From positions 8,866,001 through 8,930,000 of the forward strand of contig NZ_CP109130.1 in NCBI RefSeq assembly GCF_035917975.1: a stretch of 64,000 nt of DNA, in the 5' to 3' direction. Under the pieces are notes generated by a model. It ran no database searches and had not been told where the DNA came from. It was given only the letters and a program-made list of their open reading frames with translations. Within the stretch, counting starts at the first letter, position 1, and each line of letters starts with the position of its first letter. Below, piece after piece: positions 45,395-57,800 of the stretch. A program made the translations under genes and the position numbers. Source of the stretch: Streptosporangium sp. NBC_01756 (GTDB lineage: Bacteria; Actinomycetota; Actinomycetes; Streptosporangiales; Streptosporangiaceae).

Positions 45395-45542
45395 TCGTGG
45401 AGTTGTGAGGCTGACACAATGCGGCACGTAATCGGCCAAGACGATCACTCGACCTGGCCGCTGGCGATACCCGGGGCGCCGTCACCATGCCGCCATCACG
45501 CTGGGCGAGGCGGGGCGCCCTGGCATGGTCTGAAGGGACCTC

Positions 45543-47238
45543 ATGCCGGTCAACTTCCTGTCCGAGGAACAACGCAGCCGCTGGGGAGCCTTCAACGGCG
45601 TCCCCGACCCCCCAGCTGGGCGCCTTCTTCCACCTGGACGCCGCCGCCCGGCGCCAGGCGATGGCCGCCAACGGAGCCCGCAACCAGATCGGCTACGCCC
45701 TTCAACTCGGGACGGTGCGTTTTCTCGGCACCTTCCTGTCCGACCCGACCGACGCCCCGGCCGTGGTCGTCGACTACGTCGCCGAGCAGCTCGGCCTGGA
45801 TCCGGCCGACCTGAAGGGGTACGGGGAGAAGGAGGCGCGCTGGGATCACCAAAAGCTGATCCGCCAAGCGCACGGCTACACCAGTTTCGAGTTCGAGCAG
45901 TGGTTCGGCTTGGCCCGGTGGGTGTATCGGCGGGTGTGGAGCGGCAGCGAACGCCCGATCGTGCTGTTCGACCTGGTCACCCACCGCCTGGTCGAGGCCA
46001 AGATCCTGCTGCCCGGGGTCACCACCTTGGAGCGGATGATCGCCGGGCTGCGTGAACGCGCGGCGTTGCGCCAGTACCGGCTGCTGGCCGCCGCCCCCAG
46101 CCCCGGCCAGCGCCGCGCCCTGGAGGAGCTGGTCGTGGTGGAGGAGGGCCGCCGGGTCTCCAAGCTGGACCGGCTGCGGCGCAGCCCCACCGACGTCAGC
46201 GGCGGCGGCGTGGCCAAGGCCGTCGACCGGCACCTGGACCTGCGCGCTCTGGGCGCCACCACCTGGGACCTGTCGGCCATCCCACCGGGCCGGATCGCCG
46301 CGCTGACCCGCTTCGCCGATGCCGCCCGCGCTCAGGCCGTCGACGCCCTGGCAGGTGATCGCAAGCTGGCCACCTTGGTGGCCTTCGCCCAGGTGATGGA
46401 GCCGACCTCGGCCGATGAGGCGATCGAGGTGTTCGACCTGATTCCCGGCACGCCGAAGGACTGGTATTACATCCTGGAAGGACTGCTGGAACAGGAGACC
46501 TCGCTGAAGCCGACCGAGATCGCCTCCGACACCTCAGGAGCCTCCGAAATCGCCTTCGGCATCTTCCGGCTACTGGGCTGGCAGTTCTCCCCACGCCTGG
46601 CCGACGTCGGCAGCGCCACCCTCTTCCGCGCCGATCCGGCCGCCCACTACGGACGGCTGGAGAGCCTGATCCGCAGCCGCGTCAACCTCGGCCTCATCCG
46701 CGACAACTAGGATGACCTGCTGCGCGTCGCCGCGTCCCTGTCCACCGGCGCGGTCAAGGCCAGCGAACTGTTTCGCTACTTCTCCGGCGGCGGCACGCCC
46801 ACCCCGATCGGCCGCGCCCTGATGGAGCTGGGCAAGCTGGATCGCTCCACCTACCTGGCCTGCTACTTCGACGACGAACTCCTACGCCGCGTACACACCC
46901 AGTTCAACCGCCAAGAATCCCGCCACACCCTGGCCAGGAAAATCTTCCACGGCCAAAAAGGCGAACTCCGGCAGGAATACAAAGAAGGCCAGGAAGATCA
47001 ACTAGGGACGTTGGGGTTCATGACCAACGTCTGCATCCTCTGGAATACCGTCTACACGGCTCGCGCGCTGGACGAAATCCGCGCCGAAGGAAAGAAGATA
47101 GCCGCCGCCGACATCGCCCGACTGTCCCCGCTGGGATTTGAGCATTTCAATTTCCTGGGCCGCTACAACTTCGCCCTGCCGGAGACCATCCGGGACGGCG
47201 CCCTGCGCCCGCTGCGCACGCCCCCACCCGGTCAGTAA
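45543..47238 (+). pseudogene. tnpA: Tn3-family transposase with deletion, frameshift and amber stop
   Basis: Starts MPVNFLSEEQRSRWGAFNG (DUF4158), slips to another frame in a C-run near 45605, then reads through GYALQLGTVRFLGTFLSDP, KLDRLRRSPTDVSGGG to EAIEVFDLI. It then jumps to KDWYYILEGLLEQETSLKPT and SDTSGASEIAFGIFRLLG (second Asp of DDE). TAG at 46708 replaces a Trp codon; the frame continues DDLLRVAASLSTG through NRQESRHTLARKIFHGQ (catalytic Glu) to TAA 47236. About 565 codons remain of roughly 1,000; the first catalytic Asp is lost. Confidence 0.85.
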
Positions 47239-47732: not shown

Positions 47733-49307
47733 TTACCGGATGCCACCACCTTGGCGGCGTGATTGACCGGCTCCGTGCCGGGGCCAGGCCGACCGGCCTG
47801 CGCACAGGTAGGGGCGGGCCAGGAGGAGGGCGAGGGCGGTCAGGAAGATCCCGATGTAGACCGGGGCCAGGTGCCAGAAGTCGGTGTAGCCGGCGTGGGA
47901 GTGGACCAGGACCGGAGGGATGAAGCCGGCGATCGCGGCCAGGGCCAGTGACCACCAGATCCAGGCTTCGCCGCGACGCCAGCCCCAGGCGCTCAGACCC
48001 ATGATCGCTACGGCGGCGGCCATCAGGGCTCCGCCGAAGCCCGCGCGGTCGTGTGCGATGAACGGGAGCAGGCGCGGGTTCGCGGCCCGCAGTTCCTCGG
48101 AGGTGGTGCCGAGGAAGACCAGATCGCTGGGGACGAACACATGGGTGAGGCCGACCACGGAAACCACTGCCCCTCCGGCGAACAGGCCCAGCCCCGTTAT
48201 GATCATCAGGAGCTGGCCGGTGAGCGCTCTGCGCTGCTGTCGCTCCGGGCCCTCCGGCATGATCGTCCACTGCGGACGGGCAGGGGAACGGCGGGTGGCG
48301 ATCAGGAACATCGGGAACAGGGCGACGGCGACCGCGGTGTGCAGCGGTTCCAGAAACCCGGTTCCCAGGAAGTAGAGCAGGGTCGGAAAACCGATCAACC
48401 CGGAGGCCAGGTAGGCGTTCCGGGCCCAGGGCCAGCCTCGCCGGATCCCGCCGACGGCCAGGCCGGTGTAGAGGATGCCGATCGCCACCATCGTGGCGGC
48501 CATGGTGATCCGGTCGTGCTGCAGGAAGTGCACCAGGTGGTGGTTGACGCCGTGCAGCCGGTCGCGGTCCAGGCCGAGGAAGTTGCGGTCGTACCAGAGC
48601 AGGACGGGACCGAGGGTGATGGCGGCGGCGCCCAGGCCCGCACCGATCATCCCGATCCCCACGAGCAGGCCCCACCACCAGGCCGGCCAGCGCCGGAGGT
48701 CGCGGCCGATCTCGGAGATGCCCGGTGCGGGGTCGGTGGGCGTCGCCGCTTCGGTCACCCGCTGGAACCAGCCGGGACCGGCTTCCAGCAGCGCCGCAGG
48801 GGTCGCCAGGACCACCTTGGTGTCATCTGCCAGCGAGGCCAGGGCATCGGCGACGGCGGGAGAGGTCAGCTGGACGAGAGCCGCGCCGTCGCTCAGCACG
48901 GCGTCGACGTGGGGAGCGAGCGCGAGCGACACCGCAGGATCAGCCGTCAGGACGAACACCGGGCACCGTCGGCCGGCGGCGGCGTCGCGCACCACGTCGA
49001 CCTCGGACGGGCCGACCGGCGTCACCATGATCATGCCCGCGCCCTGTGTGGGCAGGGCGCGCACCGCATCTCGCGCCACCGCAGGGGATACCACCGCTCC
49101 CAGCCGGGTCGCCAGGCCGATGCCGGCCAGGGATCCGGCCAGTTCTCCGGGGGGTGGCCGGTGCCCGAAGGTCCGGGTGACGATCCACCGCCCGCCGGGC
49201 CGTGCGGACAATCCGCTCAATGTTCGCAAGGCGGCCCGCTGCGATCGGCGTACACCGAGCAGAGAGCCCGCGAGGCCACGCAGCGGATGATAGGTCCAGT
49301 CGGGCAT
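47733..49307 (-). CDS. multi-pass membrane protein with a TIM-barrel-like N-terminal part
   Basis: About 524 residues. The first 230 are soluble-looking and resemble dihydroorotate-dehydrogenase-like sequences (DWTYHPLRGLAGSLLG, IGLATRLGAVVSP, GAGMIMVTPVGPSEVD) without clear FMN or catalytic residues. The last 290 hold about seven hydrophobic helices with loops such as NHHLVHFLQHDR and ARRRSPARPQW-like basic turns. Its ATG 49307 overlaps the monooxygenase stop (TGATG), so translation is coupled. Possible role in immunity or export for the adjacent peptide cluster is inference. Confidence 0.7.
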   Translation of the reverse strand: MPDWTYHPLRGLAGSLLGVRRSQRAALRTLSGLSARPGGRWIVTRTFGHRPPPGELAGSLAGIGLATRLGAVVSPAVARDAVRALPTQGAGMIMVTPVGPSEVDVVRDAAAGRRCPVFVLTADPAVSLALAPHVDAVLSDGAALVQLTSPAVADALASLADDTKVVLATPAALLEAGPGWFQRVTEAATPTDPAPGISEIGRDLRRWPAWWWGLLVGIGMIGAGLGAAAITLGPVLLWYDRNFLGLDRDRLHGVNHHLVHFLQHDRITMAATMVAIGILYTGLAVGGIRRGWPWARNAYLASGLIGFPTLLYFLGTGFLEPLHTAVAVALFPMFLIATRRSPARPQWTIMPEGPERQQRRALTGQLLMIITGLGLFAGGAVVSVVGLTHVFVPSDLVFLGTTSEELRAANPRLLPFIAHDRAGFGGALMAAAVAIMGLSAWGWRRGEAWIWWSLALAAIAGFIPPVLVHSHAGYTDFWHLAPVYIGIFLTALALLLARPYLCAGRSAWPRHGAGQSRRQGGGIR

Positions 49308-50449
49308 CAGGGTCTCCAGCCTAGGATCGGCGCCATCGATCGCAGGGTCAGCGCGCCAGGGGTCAGCCGAGCGGCGAGATCTCGGGCGATGGCGGCGGGT
49401 GGCCATGCCAGCTGGCCGACGGATCCGAGGCGGGCGGATCGGCGTACGACCTGCTGGGTCCGTGACCGCCGCAGCTGGTCGTAGTGGGCCAGACCCATAC
49501 CGGGGTCCGGGTGCTGGTCGAGGCAGGCGGCCAGCACGACGGCGTCTTCCAGGGCCTGGCACGCCCCCTGCCCCAGGTTGGGAGTCATGGCGTGGGCGGC
49601 GTCGCCGAGCAGCGCCACCCTGCCGCGGGTATAACCGGGCAGCGGTGGCAGGTCGTAGAGGTCGTGCCTGAGCACGCCCTCGTCCGGTACCGCGGCGAGC
49701 AGGGCCGGGATCGGTTCGGCCCAGGTCCCGAACCGGCGGTGAAGCTCGGCCGGCTCCCCACCGGGGGTAGTGCCACCGGCGGGGACCGTGGCGGTGGCGA
49801 AGCAGTAGACGCGTCCACCCGGCATCGAGGTGAATCCGAACCGTTCGCCCCGGCCCCAGGTCGCGGCACCCTCGGTGAGCGGGTCCGGCAACGGCCGAGT
49901 GATCATGCGCCATGCGGTGTAGCCGACATAGCGGGGCGGCTTGGCCGCGGGCCATCGGAGCCGCCGGACCGTACTGTGCAGGCCGTCGGCACCGATCACC
50001 ATGTCCACCCGGCGGCTGCGGACGCCGTCTTCGACCACCACGCAGTCGCCATCATCATGAATCGCGGTCACGGTGGTCGAGGGCCGCAGCGTCTGCGCCG
50101 GGAGCGCATCGACCAAGGCCCGGAGGAGGTCGGCACGGTGCAGCACGACGAGCGGCATTCCGAACCGGCGTTCGATCTCGGCGTTGTCGGTCCGCGCCAG
50201 CCAACGACCGGCCCGGTTGCGCGCACCGCCCCCGACCTCGACCGCCCCCAGCTCCCGGACCCTGCCGTCCAGATCCAGTGCCGCAAGGGCCCACAGCGCA
50301 TTGGGCCACAAGGACAGGCCGGCACCGACCTCGGTGAACTCCGCCGCCCGCTCGCAGACCTCGATCTGCCAGCCCCGGCGGGTCAGGGCCAACGCTGCCG
50401 CCAGCCCGCCGATCCCACCGCCGACGACCACCGCGGTCCGCTCCGTCAT
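49307..50449 (-). CDS. FAD-dependent monooxygenase (PHBH-like)
   Basis: 380 residues with all flavin motifs: VVVGGGIGGLAAALAL (GxGxxG), DMVIGADGLHSTVRR (DG) and VALLGDAAHAMTPNLGQGACQALEDA (GD). It likely hydroxylates an aromatic or similar substrate with NAD(P)H and O2. ATG 50449 starts it. It lies 102 bases downstream of the ABC exporter of the cysteine-rich-peptide locus on the same strand, and is coupled to the membrane protein behind it. Membership in that locus is possible but not shown. Confidence 0.9.
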   Translation of the reverse strand: MTERTAVVVGGGIGGLAAALALTRRGWQIEVCERAAEFTEVGAGLSLWPNALWALAALDLDGRVRELGAVEVGGGARNRAGRWLARTDNAEIERRFGMPLVVLHRADLLRALVDALPAQTLRPSTTVTAIHDDGDCVVVEDGVRSRRVDMVIGADGLHSTVRRLRWPAAKPPRYVGYTAWRMITRPLPDPLTEGAATWGRGERFGFTSMPGGRVYCFATATVPAGGTTPGGEPAELHRRFGTWAEPIPALLAAVPDEGVLRHDLYDLPPLPGYTRGRVALLGDAAHAMTPNLGQGACQALEDAVVLAACLDQHPDPGMGLAHYDQLRRSRTQQVVRRSARLGSVGQLAWPPAAIARDLAARLTPGALTLRSMAPILGWRP

Positions 50450-50551
50450 CCCGCCACGCTAACAAGCGGTGCTCCAGCTGATCCGGCGGCCCCCCGGGCC
50501 CGGCCCGGAGTCGCGGAGATCAACCGATAGGGCGACCCGCCTCGCACGCGG

Positions 50552-52426
50552 TCACTGAACGCCGACATCCTCGCGATAGCCCCTGGCCTGCACCTCGAAC
50601 AGCTGGCAGTACCCTTCGCCTGCGGCCATGAGGTCGTCGTGCGTTCCCTGCTCGACGATCCGGCCGTCGCCGAGTACGACGATCAGGTCCGCGTCGCGGA
50701 CAGAGCCGAGCCGGTGCGACACCAGCAGGCTGGTGCCCCCGATGCGATGCTCGCGCAGCCGCCGGTGCATCTCGTACTCGGCCTGCGCGTCCAGGCCCGA
50801 GCTGGGCTCGTCGAGGATGAGCAGGTCGCGCTGCTCGCGCACCATCGTGCGGGCCAGGGCCAGGCGCTGCCACTGGCCTCCGGAGAGCAGCACCCCGGTC
50901 TGCGCGTCATCCTTCTCCTCGTCCCCGAAGAAGATCCGGCTCAGCAGCGTGTCGTAGCCTCGGGGCAGCGCCTCGACGATTTCGTGGACGTCCGCCATCT
51001 CGGCGGCGGCCTGGATCCTGGCACGGTCGGACAGAGCCTCGATCTCCCCCACCCCGATGTTCTCCGCCGCGGTCAGGTCATAGCTCATGTAGTCCTGGAA
51101 GAGCACGCCCATCCTGGCGCGCAGCTCGGCAGGCGGTACGGCGCGCAGGTCCACGCCGTCCCAGAGGATCGCCCCCCGGGACGGGTCGTAGAACCGGCAG
51201 AGCAGCTTGATCAAAGTGCTCTTGCCGGCTCCGTTGAGCCCCACCAGCGCGACCGCCGCGCCGTGCGGAATCGTCAGGTCGACCCCTTTCAGCACCCATG
51301 GATGGCTCTCGTCGTATCGGAACCACACATCGCGCAGCTCGATGCCCCGCCGCAGCGCAGGCAGTGTGGCGGCCGGTCCCCCCGTGGAGCGATACGGCGG
51401 CGGCAGGTCGTCGGGCAGCGATGTCACCTGCTCGTGGTAACCGAACAGCGACAGCGCCTGACGGGCGTTGGCCACGTTCTCCACCACCGAGATCAGCGCA
51501 CCCTGCGTTCCGGCCACGGCGGCGGCGAACGCGGTCACGTCGCCGAGGGTCAGCCGGCCGTCCACCGCCGCGTACACCGCCCAGATCAACCCCGCGCCGC
51601 TGACCGCGGCGGAGAGTGCCGCGAGCAGCGACTGGGTGAGCGCCTCCCGCCGGTCCAGCCGCCGCTCACCGGCCTGGACGGTGGCCAGCTCCCCGAACAT
51701 CCGATCCTTGAGGAAGCCGCCCAGCCCGAAGAGCCGGACCTCCTTCGCGGCCTGCACGTCGGTGATCAGGGAGGAGTAGAAGAGCTGCCGCCGGATCGAC
51801 GTGGACTGCCCGGCGATCATCATCATCCGCCGCTTCTCCAGCGACATCCGGGCGACCAGGGCAGGAATCGCCGCCAGCGCCACCAGTCCCGCCATGAGCG
51901 GGCTCAGCACGGCCAGGGCGACCAAGAGGCTGACCAGCGTGATGGCATTGCGCCCGATGTCGAACAGCCCCGAGGTGACGGGCGCCAACATGCTTCCCGA
52001 AGCCTGGGTGGCCAGGCGCAGCCTGTCCAGGAACGCCGGATTCTCAAACCTCGACAGGCCTTGGAATCGGTTCACCGCCGTGTACAGGCGGTCCTGCATC
52101 AGACGATCCAGCCTGCGCTCCGACTCGGCCCGCAGATACATGATGAGCTGCGGCAACACCCCGGTGACCAGCCCGATGGCGGTGAGGCCGCCGACCGGCA
52201 GCAGTACACGGTCGAGGCGACCGGTCGCCAGCGCGTCGATGAGAAGCTTCGTCACCCACACGGTCCCCGCGGGCAGCAGGCCGCCGACGACGGTGACCGC
52301 CAACTGGGACACCGCCAGACCGGGTCCGGCCCGCCAGCACAGTGACGTCACCGTGCCGACGGCTCGCAGCAGCCACCGCAGCCGGCCCTCACCTGGCTTC
52401 GCGTCGGAGGCCGGGGATGCCGTCAC
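50552..52426 (-). CDS. ABC exporter (fused TMD-NBD), probable peptide exporter
   Basis: About 624 residues. Residues 25-310 hold six transmembrane helices (AVSQLAVTVVGGLLPAGTVW..., LVSLLVALAVLSPLMAGLVALA...). The nucleotide domain has Walker A LVGLNGAGKST, signature LLSGGQWQRLALAR, Walker B DLLILDEPSSGLD and H-loop LVSHRLGS. No C39 leader-peptidase domain is present, so leader removal must be done by another enzyme. GTG 52426 overlaps the thioredoxin stop as GTGA, tying it to the disulfide genes. Confidence 0.9.
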   Translation of the reverse strand: MTASPASDAKPGEGRLRWLLRAVGTVTSLCWRAGPGLAVSQLAVTVVGGLLPAGTVWVTKLLIDALATGRLDRVLLPVGGLTAIGLVTGVLPQLIMYLRAESERRLDRLMQDRLYTAVNRFQGLSRFENPAFLDRLRLATQASGSMLAPVTSGLFDIGRNAITLVSLLVALAVLSPLMAGLVALAAIPALVARMSLEKRRMMMIAGQSTSIRRQLFYSSLITDVQAAKEVRLFGLGGFLKDRMFGELATVQAGERRLDRREALTQSLLAALSAAVSGAGLIWAVYAAVDGRLTLGDVTAFAAAVAGTQGALISVVENVANARQALSLFGYHEQVTSLPDDLPPPYRSTGGPAATLPALRRGIELRDVWFRYDESHPWVLKGVDLTIPHGAAVALVGLNGAGKSTLIKLLCRFYDPSRGAILWDGVDLRAVPPAELRARMGVLFQDYMSYDLTAAENIGVGEIEALSDRARIQAAAEMADVHEIVEALPRGYDTLLSRIFFGDEEKDDAQTGVLLSGGQWQRLALARTMVREQRDLLILDEPSSGLDAQAEYEMHRRLREHRIGGTSLLVSHRLGSVRDADLIVVLGDGRIVEQGTHDDLMAAGEGYCQLFEVQARGYREDVGVQ

Positions 52427-52938
52427 TTCGCCGACGCCATCTCGGCGAGGGCCGCGAGTTCCATGTGCGCCGCCACGATCGTGCCGTCCTGGCCGACGCG
52501 CAAGAACGTCGGGAAGGCTTCGACGCCGACCGCCTTCACCAGGCTGTCGGCGCGTTCGGCCGTGATGACGCTCGACACGCCGGCAACCACCTGGACCAGA
52601 TCGTCGGCCCGCGGACCGGCACCGGAGATGACCGCCATGGCGGCCTGGGTGCGGGCCGTGACGGCGAACTGTGGCGCGTGCTTGTGGCAGGCGTCGCAGT
52701 TGGCGTCGAAGAACGCCACGAGCTCCGGCCGGTCGACACCGTCGGTGTCGGTGTCGGCCCAGGGCAGTGTGCGCCCGACCAGGACTCCCGGGTCGTAGGA
52801 AATGAACTGTGTCCCCTCGGCGAGGCGCGCCAGCTCGGCGGTGTGCTCGCGAAGGCGGCGCAGTACCGCGAAGGTGAGCAGCAGGTCGAAGACGCAGAGC
52901 ACGCCGACCAGCACGACGGCGGCGATCAGGAAAGTCAT
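52423..52938 (-). CDS. MauD/TlpA-like membrane-anchored thioredoxin
   Basis: 171 residues. One N-terminal helix (FLIAAVVLVGVLCVFDLLLTFAVL) anchors it, and a thioredoxin fold follows outside. ELVAFFDANCDACHKHAPQF supplies the CxxC active site (C-D-A-C), and VEAFPTFLRV the cis-proline. This resembles MauD, the disulfide protein for methylamine dehydrogenase maturation, but no methylamine genes are near. ATG 52938 follows GAGG. It probably forms or shuffles disulfides in the peptide encoded at 53644. Confidence 0.85.
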   Translation of the reverse strand: MTFLIAAVVLVGVLCVFDLLLTFAVLRRLREHTAELARLAEGTQFISYDPGVLVGRTLPWADTDTDGVDRPELVAFFDANCDACHKHAPQFAVTARTQAAMAVISGAGPRADDLVQVVAGVSSVITAERADSLVKAVGVEAFPTFLRVGQDGTIVAAHMELAALAEMASAK

Positions 52939-52997
52939 CGGACAACCTCACTTGAGGACATCAGGCTTGGGGACATCAGGCTGGCACGCCTCGCACG

Positions 52998-53540
52998 TCA
53001 GCGCGGCGAGACGGAAGTGGCGAACAGGCCGATCAGGTCGTCGAGGCGCACCACGATCAGGGCGCCCACGGCGGCGGCGGCCAACGCGAGGGCGACACCG
53101 GCCGGGTGCGCCGCGGACCCGGCGCCGCCGGCGGCGGCACCGGCCGCGAACCCGATACAGCCGACCGCCACCAGAACGAGATTGCGCACCACGTGTGTCC
53201 GGCCCAGCGGGGTGACCGAAGCACCGAAGCACCGGCACGGCGTGAGCCGTCCCCGTCGCAAGGCGGCCGAGATACCGGCGGTCAGGACGATGAGCAACGC
53301 CGTCGCCGCCACGAAGCCAAAAAGCAAGGTGTACGGCAGCACGAGTGCGAGGATCACCACGGCCTCCGCCCCCAGCACGGCGTACGCCGCCACCACGGAC
53401 CTCGCGCGCGAGAACATCCCGAGAGCCACGATCGAGGCCACGAACTCGTCGAGCGCCGCCCGCCCGCGAACCTTGCCCGCCAGCGCGATCACGAAGACGC
53501 CGGCCAGCAACGCCTGGCATGCGATCATCAGATAGAGCAT
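52998..53540 (-). CDS. MauE/DoxX-like redox membrane protein
   Basis: About 180 residues with four helices (MIACQALLAGVFVIALAG, SVVAAYAVLGAEAVVILALV, LFGFVAATALLIVLTAG, LVLVAVGCIGFAAGA). GRLTPCRCFGAS carries the conserved C-x-C-F-G motif of MauE. MauE acts with MauD in disulfide formation. ATG 53540 is assumed, GTG 53546 is an alternative. It lies between the peptide gene and the thioredoxin. Confidence 0.83.
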   Translation of the reverse strand: MLYLMIACQALLAGVFVIALAGKVRGRAALDEFVASIVALGMFSRARSVVAAYAVLGAEAVVILALVLPYTLLFGFVAATALLIVLTAGISAALRRGRLTPCRCFGASVTPLGRTHVVRNLVLVAVGCIGFAAGAAAGGAGSAAHPAGVALALAAAAVGALIVVRLDDLIGLFATSVSPR

Positions 53541-53571
53541 CTTCACCGTCTCATGAGTCGTACCGTCCGGC

Positions 53572-53612
53572 GTGTTTCGCGGATCCCCGCGTGGTGAGGA
53601 TCCGCGAAACAC
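53572..53612 (-). terminator. strong hairpin (terminator or attenuator) after the peptide gene
   Basis: GTGTTTCGCGGATCC and its exact complement form a 15-bp stem with an 11-base loop, 31 bases after the peptide stop and before the MauE gene. Partial termination here would give more peptide mRNA than enzyme mRNA. Confidence 0.8.
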
Positions 53613-53643
53613 GCTCGGAGTCCGGACTACGGGTTCGGCTCGG

Positions 53644-53832
53644 TCAGCAACTTCCGTGCTTCACGCAGCCGTCCGCGCAGCCGCTTATACCGCCGACGAC
53701 GTAGCAGAGCTTGGCGTATCTGGTCGTCCCGTAGCAGGCGCAGGTCTGCCAGTAGGAGGCGTCAGCCTTCGCGGTCGCCTTCGGCACCAGCTTCTCGAGG
53801 AGGTGGTCGCCGAGCTTTCCCAGAACGTTCAT
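53644..53832 (-). CDS. precursor of a six-cysteine secreted peptide
   Basis: 62 residues. Residues 1-23 are an amphipathic, lysine-rich leader (MNVLGKLGDHLLEKL) ending ATAKA, an A-x-A signal-peptidase-like cleavage site. The remaining 39 residues begin DASYWQT and hold all six cysteines at 31, 33, 43, 52, 56 and 62, the last being the C-terminal residue; glycines and aromatics fill the gaps. No lanthionine- or lasso-type enzymes are near; MauE/MauD and an exporter follow, so disulfides are the likely modification. AGGA lies ten bases before ATG 53832. Directly after the SARP gene. A bacteriocin-like function is inference. Confidence 0.8.
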   Translation of the reverse strand: MNVLGKLGDHLLEKLVPKATAKADASYWQTCACYGTTRYAKLCYVVGGISGCADGCVKHGSC

Positions 53833-53886
53833 GTGGGTTCAGTCCTTCATCGAATGATGATCGAGTGATGTGGGCAGCCGAAACGC

Positions 53887-53918
53887 TATTTTGGGGACAT
53901 ACAGCCACCGATACAGCC
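53887..53918 (-). promoter_or_regulatory. SARP-type promoter of the peptide gene
   Basis: On the minus strand GGCTGTAT occurs twice with 12-bp periodicity (53918-53911 and 53906-53899), followed after six bases by AAAATA (53892-53887), a plausible -10. SARP proteins bind tandem repeats about one turn apart just upstream of the -10. The start would lie near 53880. A second tandem pair (TCGAATG, TCGAGTG on the plus strand) lies at about 53851-53867. Confidence 0.6.
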
Positions 53919-53921
53919 GCG

Positions 53922-56867
53922 CTACAACCGGGCGGTGAGCAGCATCTCCAGCACCGGATCGCGCCGCATTCCGGGCATCGCGAAGAGCTCCTCGGCCCTG
54001 CGGGCGTCCTCCGCCGCCGCATACGAGTCGCCCAGCGCGGCACGCACCCTGGCGAACTGGCGAGTGGCGGCGGCCTGGCCGTAGGTGTCACCGACCTGAG
54101 CGGTCAGCTCCAGCGCCTGGGCCAGGTCGGCCACAGCCGCGGCGAGATCACCGTTCCGTAGCCAGATCTCGGACCTGCTGAGCAGCACCTCCCACTCATC
54201 CTCCCGGTTACCGGTCTCCCGGCAGCGGCTCAGCGCGTCCTCGAACGTGGCCAGTGCCTCGCCGCGACGATCGAGCAGGCAGTAGGCACGGCCGAGCGCG
54301 GCCAAGGTGATGCTCTCCCCGAGCAGGTCACGGTCCGCCCTCCGAACGGACAGGCACCGTTCGAAGCAATCGGCCGCCTCTGGCGAACGGCCGAGCCGGA
54401 GCAGGACTTCGCCCAGGTTGTGCCTGACCATGCCGGCCCGGTTCGATCCATGTGCCTCGATCAGCCGCAGCCCCGCGGTGATGTGGCCGAGGGCGTCATC
54501 GAGATCACCGGTGCGCATGCTCAGCCAGCCGAGGTTGTGCAGCGCCAGCCCTTCGGCCTCCTGGTCGCCCAGGCCGCGCCGGAGTCCGAGGGCGCGGTGC
54601 AGGCAGTCGCGAGCGGCGTCGGTCCGGCCGGTGCGCCATTCCACCACCCCCAGCGTCGTCAGTGTGAACGCCTCACCGGTCCTGTCACCATGCCGCCGCG
54701 CCACCTCGACGGCGAGCCGGGTCATGGTCTCAAACTCCCGCCAGTGGCCGTACTTCATCGCCCGAACTCTGACCAGCGGCATCAGATCGGTGACGAAGCG
54801 AGCGACGTCGGGCTCCCCCGTCGCCGCCTGGGTGACGGCCGCGACCAGGCACGGCACCTCGGTTTCGAACCACCGCACCGCCTGCGCGGGGCTCCGGAAG
54901 GCCACGCCTGCGTCCCGTCCGTCCGGCGGGCCCACTTGTGGCCGCAAGTGCGGTTCCACCAGGTCGCTCACCTGCCGGCACCGATCGAGGTACCAGTCCA
55001 GTGCGCGCCGGACGGCCCGTACCCGGTCAGCCGGCGGGTCCTCGGCCACGGCCAGCTCGGCGGCGAACAGCCTGAGGAGGTCGTGCATGCGAAATCGCCC
55101 GTCGCCGACCGGCTCCAGCAGGCGAACCTCCGTCAGCTCGTCGAGCGCCGCCTCGGCCACCTTCGGCTCGACGTCGAGCAGCGCGGCGGCGAGCTCAACG
55201 CTGACCTCCGGCACATCGAGCACTCCGAACAGCCGGAAGGCGCGCGCCGCCGCGCTCACGCCGCTCCTCAGCATTTCGTAGCTGATCTCAAAACAGGATC
55301 GGACGGCCAGGTCAGCGGCCTGCAACTCGTCCAGGCGACGCTGCCGGCTCCGCAGCCGCTCGCCGAACCGCTCAAGCGACCAATCGGGGCGGGCGGCCAG
55401 ACGGGCGCCGGCGATGCGCAACGCCAGTGGGTGATAACCGCACCGGCGGGTGATGCCGGCCGCCGCCTCGGCCTCGGCCGTCACTCGCGACTGACCCGCC
55501 AGCTGCGCGAGCATCCGCACCGAGTCCGCCTCGTCGAGCACCTCGACGGCGACCCGCACGGCCTCCATGGTGGTCAGCGCCGCCCGGCTGGTGACCAGCG
55601 CCGCGCAGCCGCCGCTCGCCGGCACCAGCGGCGCGACCTGGGCGGCGTCGACGGCGTTGTCGAGAACGATCAGGACTCGCCGGCCGGCCAGCAGCGACTG
55701 GTAATGGGTGGCCGCTTCCGCCGGCGCCGCGGGGATGTCGCCGTGCGGCACTCCCAGAGCCCGCAGGAAGCGGCCGAGCACCTCGGCGGGCTCCAATGGC
55801 GGCAGGCCCGGAGTCGATCCCTGCAGGTCGACGTAGAGCTGACCGTCGGTGTAGCGATCGGCCACGGCGTACGCCGCCCGTAGCGCCAGCGTCGACTTGC
55901 CGACCCCGCCGGGGCCGTGCAGCGCCAGGACCGGCGGTTCGCCACCCGCCTGCGGATGACCACGCAGCACGGTGAGCATCCGGGCGAGCTCGGTCGACCG
56001 GCCGACGAACACCCTCGGCTCCCGTGGCAGTTGACGTGGCCGCAGGCGCCCGTCCGAGGCTCCGGTGACCACGTTGTTCCCACCGGTCGGCGGCCTGTCC
56101 GGCGACAGCAGATCCGCGTCCCGGCGCAGGACCGCCTGTTGCAGCCGGCGCAGGTCCGGTCCGGGGTCGAGCCCGAGTTCCTCGGCCAGGACCCGGCGAG
56201 CCATCCCGAATACGTCCAGCGCACCGACCACGTCGCCGCACCGGTACAACGCCACCATCAGCTGGCCGTACAGCCGCTCCCGCAGCGGATGCTGCCCGAT
56301 CAGCTCGCGCAGCCGCCTGACCGCCTTCGTGTGCCCGCCCAGCATGAGCTGGATCTCCGTGTGCTCCTCCACCGCGCTCAGATACTGGTCGGTGAGCCGG
56401 GCGATCACCTCCCGCAGGGCCGGCCCCAGCGGCACGTCCTCGGCCGCCGTTCCTCGCCACAGTGCGAGAGCCCGGGCGTACGCGTCCTGTGCGGTGCCGA
56501 GGTCCTGGCGGGCCAACGCCTGGCGACCGTACCCGAGCAGGGCCTCGAACTGGGAGAGATCGAACTCGGCCGGCTCGACCCGCAGCAGGTAGCCGGCCTC
56601 CGTGGTGACCAGCCGCTCGTCGGCCGGATCATCGGCGGAAGGCACCAGCCTGCGCAGCTGCATGAGGTAGGTGCGCAGGTTCGCCACCGCCGAGTGGGGC
56701 GGTCGTTCGTCCCACACCTCGGCCACCAGTGAACGGACCGGGACGACGTGCCCGGCACGTGCGAGCAGCATGGCGAGGACGGTGCGTTGTTTCGGTGCCG
56801 TGATCTGTACGGGTGAGCCGTCGACCTCGATCCGCATCGGCCCAAGGAGTCGAAACCTCAAGGTCAT
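53922..56867 (-). CDS. SARP regulator with NB-ARC-type ATPase and TPR domains (AfsR-like)
   Basis: 981 residues. Winged helix at 5-95 (LGPMRIEVDGSPVQITAPKQR, VANLRTYLMQLRRLV), BTAD at 100-255 ending AEELGLDPGPDLRRL, ATPase with Walker A LHGPGGVGKSTLAL (near 325) and VLIVLDNAVDA, then TPR repeats from about residue 690 (ALHNLGWLSMRTGDLDDAL and similar). This is AfsR-type layout. It starts at ATG 56867 (AGGAAGG) 26 bases after the signal-peptidase gene and ends 89 bases before the peptide gene; it is the probable activator of the locus. Confidence 0.92.
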   Translation of the reverse strand: MTLRFRLLGPMRIEVDGSPVQITAPKQRTVLAMLLARAGHVVPVRSLVAEVWDERPPHSAVANLRTYLMQLRRLVPSADDPADERLVTTEAGYLLRVEPAEFDLSQFEALLGYGRQALARQDLGTAQDAYARALALWRGTAAEDVPLGPALREVIARLTDQYLSAVEEHTEIQLMLGGHTKAVRRLRELIGQHPLRERLYGQLMVALYRCGDVVGALDVFGMARRVLAEELGLDPGPDLRRLQQAVLRRDADLLSPDRPPTGGNNVVTGASDGRLRPRQLPREPRVFVGRSTELARMLTVLRGHPQAGGEPPVLALHGPGGVGKSTLALRAAYAVADRYTDGQLYVDLQGSTPGLPPLEPAEVLGRFLRALGVPHGDIPAAPAEAATHYQSLLAGRRVLIVLDNAVDAAQVAPLVPASGGCAALVTSRAALTTMEAVRVAVEVLDEADSVRMLAQLAGQSRVTAEAEAAAGITRRCGYHPLALRIAGARLAARPDWSLERFGERLRSRQRRLDELQAADLAVRSCFEISYEMLRSGVSAAARAFRLFGVLDVPEVSVELAAALLDVEPKVAEAALDELTEVRLLEPVGDGRFRMHDLLRLFAAELAVAEDPPADRVRAVRRALDWYLDRCRQVSDLVEPHLRPQVGPPDGRDAGVAFRSPAQAVRWFETEVPCLVAAVTQAATGEPDVARFVTDLMPLVRVRAMKYGHWREFETMTRLAVEVARRHGDRTGEAFTLTTLGVVEWRTGRTDAARDCLHRALGLRRGLGDQEAEGLALHNLGWLSMRTGDLDDALGHITAGLRLIEAHGSNRAGMVRHNLGEVLLRLGRSPEAADCFERCLSVRRADRDLLGESITLAALGRAYCLLDRRGEALATFEDALSRCRETGNREDEWEVLLSRSEIWLRNGDLAAAVADLAQALELTAQVGDTYGQAAATRQFARVRAALGDSYAAAEDARRAEELFAMPGMRRDPVLEMLLTARL

Positions 56868-56893
56868 CCCTTCCTCGTCAGCCCCGGCGCCGG

Positions 56894-57352
56894 CTACAGG
56901 GCCGACCCGCCCAACCGGCGCAGCGCGACGCCGAGCATCTGGTCCGCGGGAAAGAACCCCCGCTGCCGGGAGTCGACACTGGCCGCCGGGTTGTCACCGA
57001 GGACCACCATCGCCCCGGAAGGCACCAGAGCCACGCCGGCACCGGCCGTGACCCCCGCCGGCACCGGATCACCGGGCAACGCGGCGACCCGTTTGATGTT
57101 CCAGCGTCGGCCGTCCGGACCGGACGGCCCGGGCATGTACCGACCGGAAGGATCCAGCGGAGGCTCGAGCACGACGACATCGCCCCGGCTCAGCTGATCG
57201 AGCCGTCGCCGCCGCACCAGGACGCGGTCGCCGTCGGTCAGCGTCGGCATCATGCTCGTTCCGTCAACGGTGATCACCAAATAGCTTCGGCGAGCCCAGG
57301 AAGCACCCGCCGCCAAGAGGAGAACACCGAAGAGCAGCCCACCGATGATCAA
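56894..57352 (-). CDS. type I signal peptidase (S26), small
   Basis: 152 residues with one N-terminal membrane helix (GGLLFGVLLLAAGASW). VDGTSMMPTLTDGDRVLV holds the catalytic Ser, WNIKRVAALPGD the catalytic Lys, and MVVLGDNPAASVDSRQ is the GDN-x-x-x-SxDSR box. The start is probably TTG 57352 after AAGG. It is smaller than a housekeeping SipW/LepB and sits at the head of the operon with the peptide gene, so it may remove the leader at A-K-A. Confidence 0.88.
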   Translation of the reverse strand: MIIGGLLFGVLLLAAGASWARRSYLVITVDGTSMMPTLTDGDRVLVRRRRLDQLSRGDVVVLEPPLDPSGRYMPGPSGPDGRRWNIKRVAALPGDPVPAGVTAGAGVALVPSGAMVVLGDNPAASVDSRQRGFFPADQMLGVALRRLGGSAL

Positions 57353-57467: not shown

Positions 57468-57800
57468 ATGCCTGTCGACTTCTTGAGCGACTCGTTGAGC
57501 GACTCGGAAGCGGCGAAGTACGGCCGTTCTGCCGGTCCGCCCTCCCGGACCGAGATGGAGAAGACCTTATCCTCGGCAACAAGGACAAGGCCCTCATCAA
57601 GGGGCATCGCGGCCGGCATATCAGATGGGGCTCCGCTCTCCGGCTCGTGACCGTTCGCTACCTCGGGTGCTTTCTGGCTGATCCGCTGGAGGTGCCGAAC
57701 GAGGTCTTGGACACCGTCGCCGCGCAGCTGGAGATCGAGGGTCCTTCCTGCGTGAAGCGTCACACCGAGCGGGACAAGACGCGGTCGGAGCACACCCGCG
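57468..57800 (+). pseudogene. tnpA: Tn3-family transposase N-terminal fragment
   Basis: MPVDFLSDSLSDSEAAKYGR and AGPPSRTEMEK start the DUF4158 domain. After a frameshift near 57565 the family continues GRHIRWGSALRLVTVRYLG and FLADPLEVPNEVLDTVAAQL, then SCVKRHTERDKTR, and ends. It faces away from the peptide locus, whose other side also carries a Tn3 element. Confidence 0.72.

Follow-up and report, generated by a model that had tools for sequence, protein, structure and literature searches.

MauE and MauD mature the disulfide-rich light chain of methylamine dehydrogenase, glycocins leave the cell through ABC (ATP-binding cassette) transporters, and conopeptides combine a conserved pre-region with a hypervariable core. 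In Streptomyces, decRiPPter (2020) lists, in the accessible part of the report, three candidate families of ribosomally synthesized and post-translationally modified peptides (RiPPs) with mauE, one of them also with mauD, whose precursors contain at least eight Cys; a role for mauE in precursor modification is proposed there (PMC7794033). The actifensins of Actinomyces are described, in the available portion of their report, as six-Cys bacteriocins with a 32-residue leader, encoded in several variable copies together with ABC genes (PMC6989792). Here we analyzed a locus of the soil bacterium Streptosporangium sp. NBC_01756 (NZ_CP109130.1) located at positions 47733..57352 of a stretch of 64,000 nt (the window), with all its genes on the minus strand. 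We conclude, with a probability of about 0.82, that the product of this locus is a small secreted peptide rich in disulfides, which would be guided by a leader, exported by an ABC protein, trimmed by an S26 peptidase and disulfide-bonded. This conclusion is based on comparisons of the gene set, the leader/core division of the precursor, its A-x-A site, the even number of Cys and the fold classes of the proteins. It supports and extends the core of the first-pass annotation, which had proposed a biosynthetic locus for a secreted multi-disulfide peptide.

The precursor gene (53644-53832, minus strand) encodes 62 residues including six Cys, and an AAGGA sequence is present 10 bases ahead of its ATG. 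A protein search across 250 genomes from the same family returned close relatives together with numerous short-leader matches. The pattern they share is a conserved leader (about 24 residues) ahead of Cys-rich remainders of unrelated appearance. Other genomes thus contain the frame too, open and with its leader conserved, and leader differences were only synonymous in three of six close pairs; by these comparisons it exceeds chance, in agreement with the earlier assumption that it is translated. We aligned 93 precursors at the A-x-A pattern, which is expected at S26 cleavage sites. P-7 and A-1 were present in 93 of 93 leaders, D-15 in 92 and A-3 in 91. Since the alignment point itself demands the P and the final A, the less constrained evidence comes from A-3 and D-15. 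In a MAFFT alignment of 24 precursors made without this rule, P17, A21, A23 and D9 were all invariant. One precursor lacking the P..A.A pattern (L078) was excluded from the 93; it has six Cys. Both S26 motifs, GTSMMP and IKRV, which we take to contain the catalytic Ser and Lys, were found in 58/58 S26 profile matches. These data fit the predicted A-x-A cleavage and the 39-residue product proposed previously. The leader was modeled as helical with low confidence by AlphaFold2 (AF2). None of the 24 precursors scanned gave a real match to a Pfam or NCBIfam family.

The number of Cys in the core was strikingly regular. All 93 cores (91 distinct) contained 4, 6 or 8 Cys (9, 67 and 17 cores, respectively), and the number was even in 66/66 cores after thinning at 0.7 similarity (binomial p of 1e-20, too optimistic since the cores are related). 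A second sample was made of 60 further listed hits, taken in list order and excluding those already examined. It gave 63 precursors; after removal of 8 that repeated earlier cores and 1 duplicated within the sample, 54 distinct new cores remained. Even numbers were found in 53 of these 54, or in 45/46 when those from loci L010-L027 (8 cores), read before the parity idea, were set aside. The filter applied to open reading frames (ORFs), discarding those with fewer than 2 Cys or a tail above 130 residues, dropped none. One further listed hit contained eight Cys, and four cores on named records, picked from the output, were also even. In total, 145 distinct cores were read. Paired thiols are the straightforward reading of these numbers, as the frameworks differ widely. 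The Cys spacing also varies widely from core to core. In the 22-member close group of the window core, the six Cys and a GG pair are invariant. The AF2 model of this core is a compact beta fold, with block means of 85-92 for the predicted local distance difference test (pLDDT) from residue 31 on and a predicted template modeling score (pTM) of 0.47. Its predicted monoisotopic mass is 4095.75 when reduced and 4089.70 when oxidised.

The first-pass annotation had suggested a search for the neighbourhood in other genomes. A profile (A1) built from 24 leader-bearing precursors matched, at E up to 1e-4, 151/341 genomes of the family in 28/68 genera, the hits being inspected in part. It also matched 19/199 genomes in a second genus and, at a laxer E of 0.01, 29/394 genomes across the class, several of them weakly. 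We then considered 61 loci, consisting of the window and 60 stretches chosen by hand, hence non-randomly, from the listed hits to cover many genera (genus labels taken from the search lists). The fetched stretches were mostly of 19 kb, with one of 9.6 kb at a contig end. They were scanned with profiles grown from the proteins of the window and from hits in the same loci. Within 6 kb of the precursor, we detected the thioredoxin in 54 loci, the ABC protein in 57, S26 in 56, MauE in 40 and SARP in 39. The thioredoxin, ABC and S26 genes occurred together in 49/61 loci and 15/17 genera, and were accompanied by MauE in 38/61 loci and 13 genera. In contrast, 20 arbitrary 19-kb stretches, one each from 20 of the same genomes, showed no thioredoxin, S26, MauE or SARP match around their centre; three had an ABC match there, and a single weak leader-profile hit of 11 bits fell in a long frame. 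Nine named records came from plasmid searches with the thioredoxin, and leader-like precursors were present in 4/5 of those fetched. In the cleanest named case, Streptomyces atratus plasmid NZ_CP108285.1, the order is BTAD regulator, hypothetical precursor, MauE/DoxX, hypothetical protein (the thioredoxin), ABC, S26 and integrase. The gene set is thus conserved together elsewhere, and six of the eight genes, encoding SARP, S26, precursor, MauE, thioredoxin and ABC protein, are by these comparisons a recurring system. All eight ORFs of the first-pass annotation are present and match the families given, apart from a weak Pfam match for the thioredoxin and no family match for the membrane protein. 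However, the FAD monooxygenase and the membrane protein are neighbours of the system and not components, because they were found near precursors in only 3/61 loci and 1/61 (the window itself), respectively.

Several observations weigh against this reading. At least one of the thioredoxin, ABC and S26 genes was missing from 12/61 loci. L074, L090 and L093 lacked most of the set, and the arrays in L090 and L093 had only SARP and ABC hits nearby; for L090, with four precursors, this suggests maturation in trans. MauE was not found by profile near 21/61 loci. When the 20 genomes behind these loci were searched with Pfam, the matches listed included a MauE somewhere in 20/20, but only for L080 did one lie within 6 kb of a precursor, the gene being just outside the fetched stretch. 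Counting this gene, which is near the second precursor of L080, raises the number to 41/61, so that MauE, previously presented as a component, is a common but not a universal one. The core of L160 has five Cys; its near twin in L165 ends earlier and has four. Finally, no chemistry or bioassay was found for any member.

The most likely use of such peptides would be chemical competition, in a bacteriocin-like manner. Among six close pairs that we compared, three, from the closest group of the window, showed 0 non-synonymous against 1-3 synonymous differences in the leader and 7.5-16.2 non-synonymous differences in the core, with a core ratio of non-synonymous to synonymous rates (dN/dS) of 1.45-2.33. 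The three other pairs gave no such contrast (leader 0.74-1.51; core 0.44, 0.58 and 3.15) and count on the opposite side. There is therefore a hint, in three of six pairs only and from small counts, that the core evolves faster than the leader. Moreover, 21/61 loci carried 2-7 precursors with differing cores. L086, L090, L078 and L120 each had between three and seven precursor genes in one stretch, and their cores differed. Alternatively, the product could be a signal or a cell-surface or developmental peptide rather than an antimicrobial. The SARP gene near 39 of the loci would suit this proposal, as would the outcome of ORF clustering around the 61 loci, in which no recurrent candidate immunity gene appeared. 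We nevertheless consider it rather unlikely, since an arms race better fits the differing cores encoded side by side, and the dN/dS values of the closest-group pairs, small as the counts are and mixed as the other pairs are, point the same way.

We next examined the redox pair on which disulfide formation would depend. The Pfam match of the thioredoxin is weak (0.0095), but its assignment is clear by PDB profile (ResA, CcmG and SdbA) and by structure, the model consisting of an N-terminal helix (residues 2-42) and a thioredoxin fold. C81, C84 and P143 are invariant among 19 homologues. The CxxC motif was present in 55/56 thioredoxin profile matches and a C.C motif in 41/42 MauE profile matches. 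The genome of the window contains one match to the thioredoxin and six to MauE. In this genome, another MauE gene (L001, 1438-2789) directly precedes a gene for a DsbA-like protein, named by eye, that has a CPAC motif and a hydrophobic stretch at its N terminus. From their sequences the two are likely to form a general disulfide pair, and this adjacency fits MauE as a disulfide partner. However, ResA/CcmG/TlpA-type thioredoxins often work as reductases or isomerases, which makes the direction of redox flow ambiguous and counts against an oxidase role. The disulfides could then form spontaneously or by housekeeping enzymes, the MauE/thioredoxin pair serving isomerisation, reduction or export coupling. 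In line with this, the available part of one paper reports that sviceucin was still made without the thioredoxin SviF, although only in mycelia, and that deletions of mslE and mslF merely lowered the yield (PMC9266682). The sviF result suggests that, here as well, the pair may assist in export or isomerisation, and the loci without a detected MauE also speak for this alternative. On the other hand, the thioredoxin is a specific companion of the precursor (54/61 loci against 0/20 controls), and the folding of up to eight Cys in less than 50 residues would presumably profit from catalysis. We regard a pair uninvolved in disulfide formation as unlikely, and favour disulfide formation by the dedicated pair.

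The 93 leaders contain no Cys, and their longest uncharged run has a median of 6 residues and a maximum of 11. Judged from these sequences, ordinary Sec export of the precursor is unlikely, and because the leader has no long hydrophobic run, the ABC protein, which gave no C39 peptidase match in Pfam, is the likely exporter. It matched general MsbA-type models with scores below their cut-offs and was the only part also hitting the control stretches (3/20), as could be expected if it pumped drugs or conferred immunity, the precursor leaving by another route. Such a role is improbable given its presence near the precursor in 57/61 loci and a leader that is not Sec-like. In addition, the likely start of its gene, GTG 52426 as read from the sequence, overlaps the thioredoxin stop by 4 bases.

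No enzymes of lanthipeptide, lasso or thiopeptide biosynthesis, whose absence had been noted previously, were detected among Pfam matches of the eight genes (E up to 1), and none recurred around the 61 loci. Clustering of the other ORFs around the precursors revealed no further recurrent enzyme, and neither a Lan-type dehydratase/cyclase nor YcaO was among the 30 ORF clusters listed. Enzymes encoded elsewhere could still introduce thioether or other crosslinks, the disulfides being only part of the modification. The cores contain 15.6 % Ser+Thr and 10.2 % Tyr, and lanthipeptides with unclustered maturation genes are reported in the accessible text of one study (PMC8960859). Since the eight genes gave no Pfam match to a modification enzyme, none recurred near the precursors and the even Cys parity is most simply explained by disulfides, this appears quite improbable. 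Metal binding by free or metal-bound thiols (metallophores or metallothionein-like peptides), compatible with the Cys content (16.5 % of core residues) and with tetra-thiolate sites of even Cys number, is very hard to reconcile with variable Cys spacing, low contents of His (2.1 %) and of acidic residues in the cores, the compact beta fold of the model and a membrane-anchored thioredoxin and MauE adjoining the exporter.

Features of the locus, in window coordinates
Feature	Position	Strand	Evidence and remarks
S26 signal-peptidase-like protease	56894..57352	(-)	PF10502 2.8e-22; TIGR02227 1.1e-21, over its cut-off; GTSMMP and IKRV motifs
AfsR-like SARP regulator	53922..56867	(-)	BTAD 3.2e-41, NB-ARC, TPR
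Precursor leader, 23 residues	53764..53832	(-)	Predicted helix, residues 4-15; ends P-x-x-x-A-x-A
Precursor core, 39 residues, six Cys	53647..53763	(-)	Predicted small four-strand beta protein; three putative disulfides
Precursor stop codon	53644..53646	(-)	
17-bp perfect inverted repeat, 11-base loop, between precursor and MauE	53570..53614	(-)	
MauE-like membrane redox protein, CRCF motif	52998..53546	(-)	PF07291 3.9e-22
TlpA/ResA/DsbE-like thioredoxin, membrane-anchored, CDAC active site	52423..52938	(-)	
ABC exporter, membrane domain and ATPase	50552..52426	(-)	Profile matches, protein scanned from 52375

ORF reading of the window confirmed eight minus-strand ORFs in the locus. The FAD monooxygenase gene matched the FAD_binding_3 profile, while the membrane protein gave no family match in profile searches. 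For MauE, a start at 53546 or 53540 is likelier than at 53612, which sits within the hairpin formed by the inverted repeat. Folding of the RNA of an 84-nt region gave -49.8 kcal/mol (z -6.45), and none of 200 shuffled sequences did as well. Fifty-base windows of -25 kcal/mol or better were found in the 120 bases past 73/94 precursors and inside 37/94 precursor genes; as this comparison is not composition-matched, the occurrence of strong hairpins after many precursors is only suggestive. The repeat is likely to act as an attenuator keeping precursor mRNA in excess.

The genomic surroundings were also inspected. To the left of the cluster, at 45487-47238 on the plus strand, two separate ORFs matching DUF4158 and DDE_Tnp_Tn3 carry pieces of a Tn3-type transposase, and a short plus-strand stretch resembling the N-terminal part of that transposase (E 1e-8) begins on the right at 57647; the cluster is therefore bracketed by transposon remnants. 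Given the integrase after the cassette of NZ_CP108285.1 (L208), the system may be moving between strains. A decayed copy, with a SARP frame fused into the precursor end and followed by a truncated ABC gene, was seen at 8001-8078 of L007 and in L019 (Streptosporangium amethystogenes). In L094, L096, L113, L120 and L121, from three genera, the cluster has the same chromosomal genes around it (named by eye): all five loci contain ABC genes for branched-chain amino acids, and four contain a polA-like gene. This hints at old synteny or a common site of integration. A second complete cluster (L214, in genome G635, the source of the further eight-Cys hit), with an 8-Cys precursor, thioredoxin, ABC, S26, MauE and SARP genes, was found near L080 in the same genome. 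One genome can therefore hold several differing clusters.

We propose that the SARP would turn the cluster on, and that the 23-residue leader, not being Sec-like, would steer the precursor to the ABC exporter dedicated to it. Once outside the membrane, the core would have its three disulfides formed or shuffled by the anchored thioredoxin, itself recharged by MauE, and the dedicated S26 peptidase would cut after A-K-A (residue 23), releasing the 39-residue mature peptide. The strong hairpin past the precursor gene would keep the precursor more strongly expressed than the maturation genes. Such a secretion-folding machine could serve many products, with leader, exporter, peptidase and thioredoxin kept and a core free to change. 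If this is true, 151/341 genomes of one actinomycete family encode disulfide-folded mini-proteins unnamed in current family libraries, and the constant leader and machine would make many cores findable, expressible and foldable with one system. It would also reveal how multi-disulfide peptides are made by bacteria lacking a classical periplasm, and MauE/MauD-like pairs would gain a testable substrate outside methylamine metabolism.

A ribosomal precursor of less than 10 kDa, a conserved leader and a variable core place these peptides with RiPPs and leader-bearing bacteriocins. We lean slightly towards an undescribed ribosomal class, in which one machine would fold well over a hundred 4-, 6- and 8-Cys cores with disulfides as the sole modification. 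This machine would combine a peptidase-less ABC exporter, a TlpA-like thioredoxin usually with MauE, and an S26 peptidase whose target is a leader of non-Sec type with an A-x-A site. A literature search recognised no publication describing this class by title and abstract opening. Because chemistry and activity are predicted only and mauE candidates have been flagged before, we file the system among disulfide-rich leader peptides; it may form a class of its own. The first-pass annotation knew of no named class for the gene set, and this has to be qualified by the mauE-containing, Cys-rich candidate RiPP families listed earlier by decRiPPter. In its accessible text these families are the nearest report, with mauE and a small Cys-rich precursor in the same clusters; compared by description only, they differ in that a leader, an A-x-A site, ABC and S26 proteins go unmentioned there (PMC7794033).

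Class I lasso clusters (sviceucin, MS-271 and humidimycin) have, according to the portions available, a DoxX-family protein and a CXXC thioredoxin, HumE/HumF in the case of humidimycin, beside a disulfide-bearing actinomycete peptide (PMC9266682, PMC7168211). The window shares this DoxX/MauE and thioredoxin pair beside the precursor, but differs in core size and by the S26 peptidase, and neither the lasso B protease nor the Asn-synthetase-like C cyclase had a Pfam match in the eight genes (E up to 1). The glycocins resemble it as disulfide-bearing ribosomal peptides with dedicated thiol-disulfide oxidoreductases, in the part of the paper at hand (PMC9266682). Unlike them, the eight window genes gave no Pfam match to a glycosyltransferase or a C39-type ABC protein. 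Laterosporulins share the six Cys of the window core and were among its weak fold matches, far below significance. The actifensin operon encodes a subtilisin-like protease, and MauE, thioredoxin and S26 are not named in the available text (PMC6989792). The MauE/MauD pair of the methylamine dehydrogenase light chain stands next to a disulfide-rich exported polypeptide, as here, on the evidence of the accessible text (PMC7794033). In the window, the precursor matched neither that light chain nor any other Pfam model at E up to 1, and no other mau gene was seen among the eight. In organisation, the best reading by analogy is a conopeptide-like system. The conopeptides of cone snails also present several cysteine frameworks in a hypervariable core, as outlined in the consulted part of the paper, and since they follow eukaryotic secretion the likeness is one of organisation only (PMC9266682).

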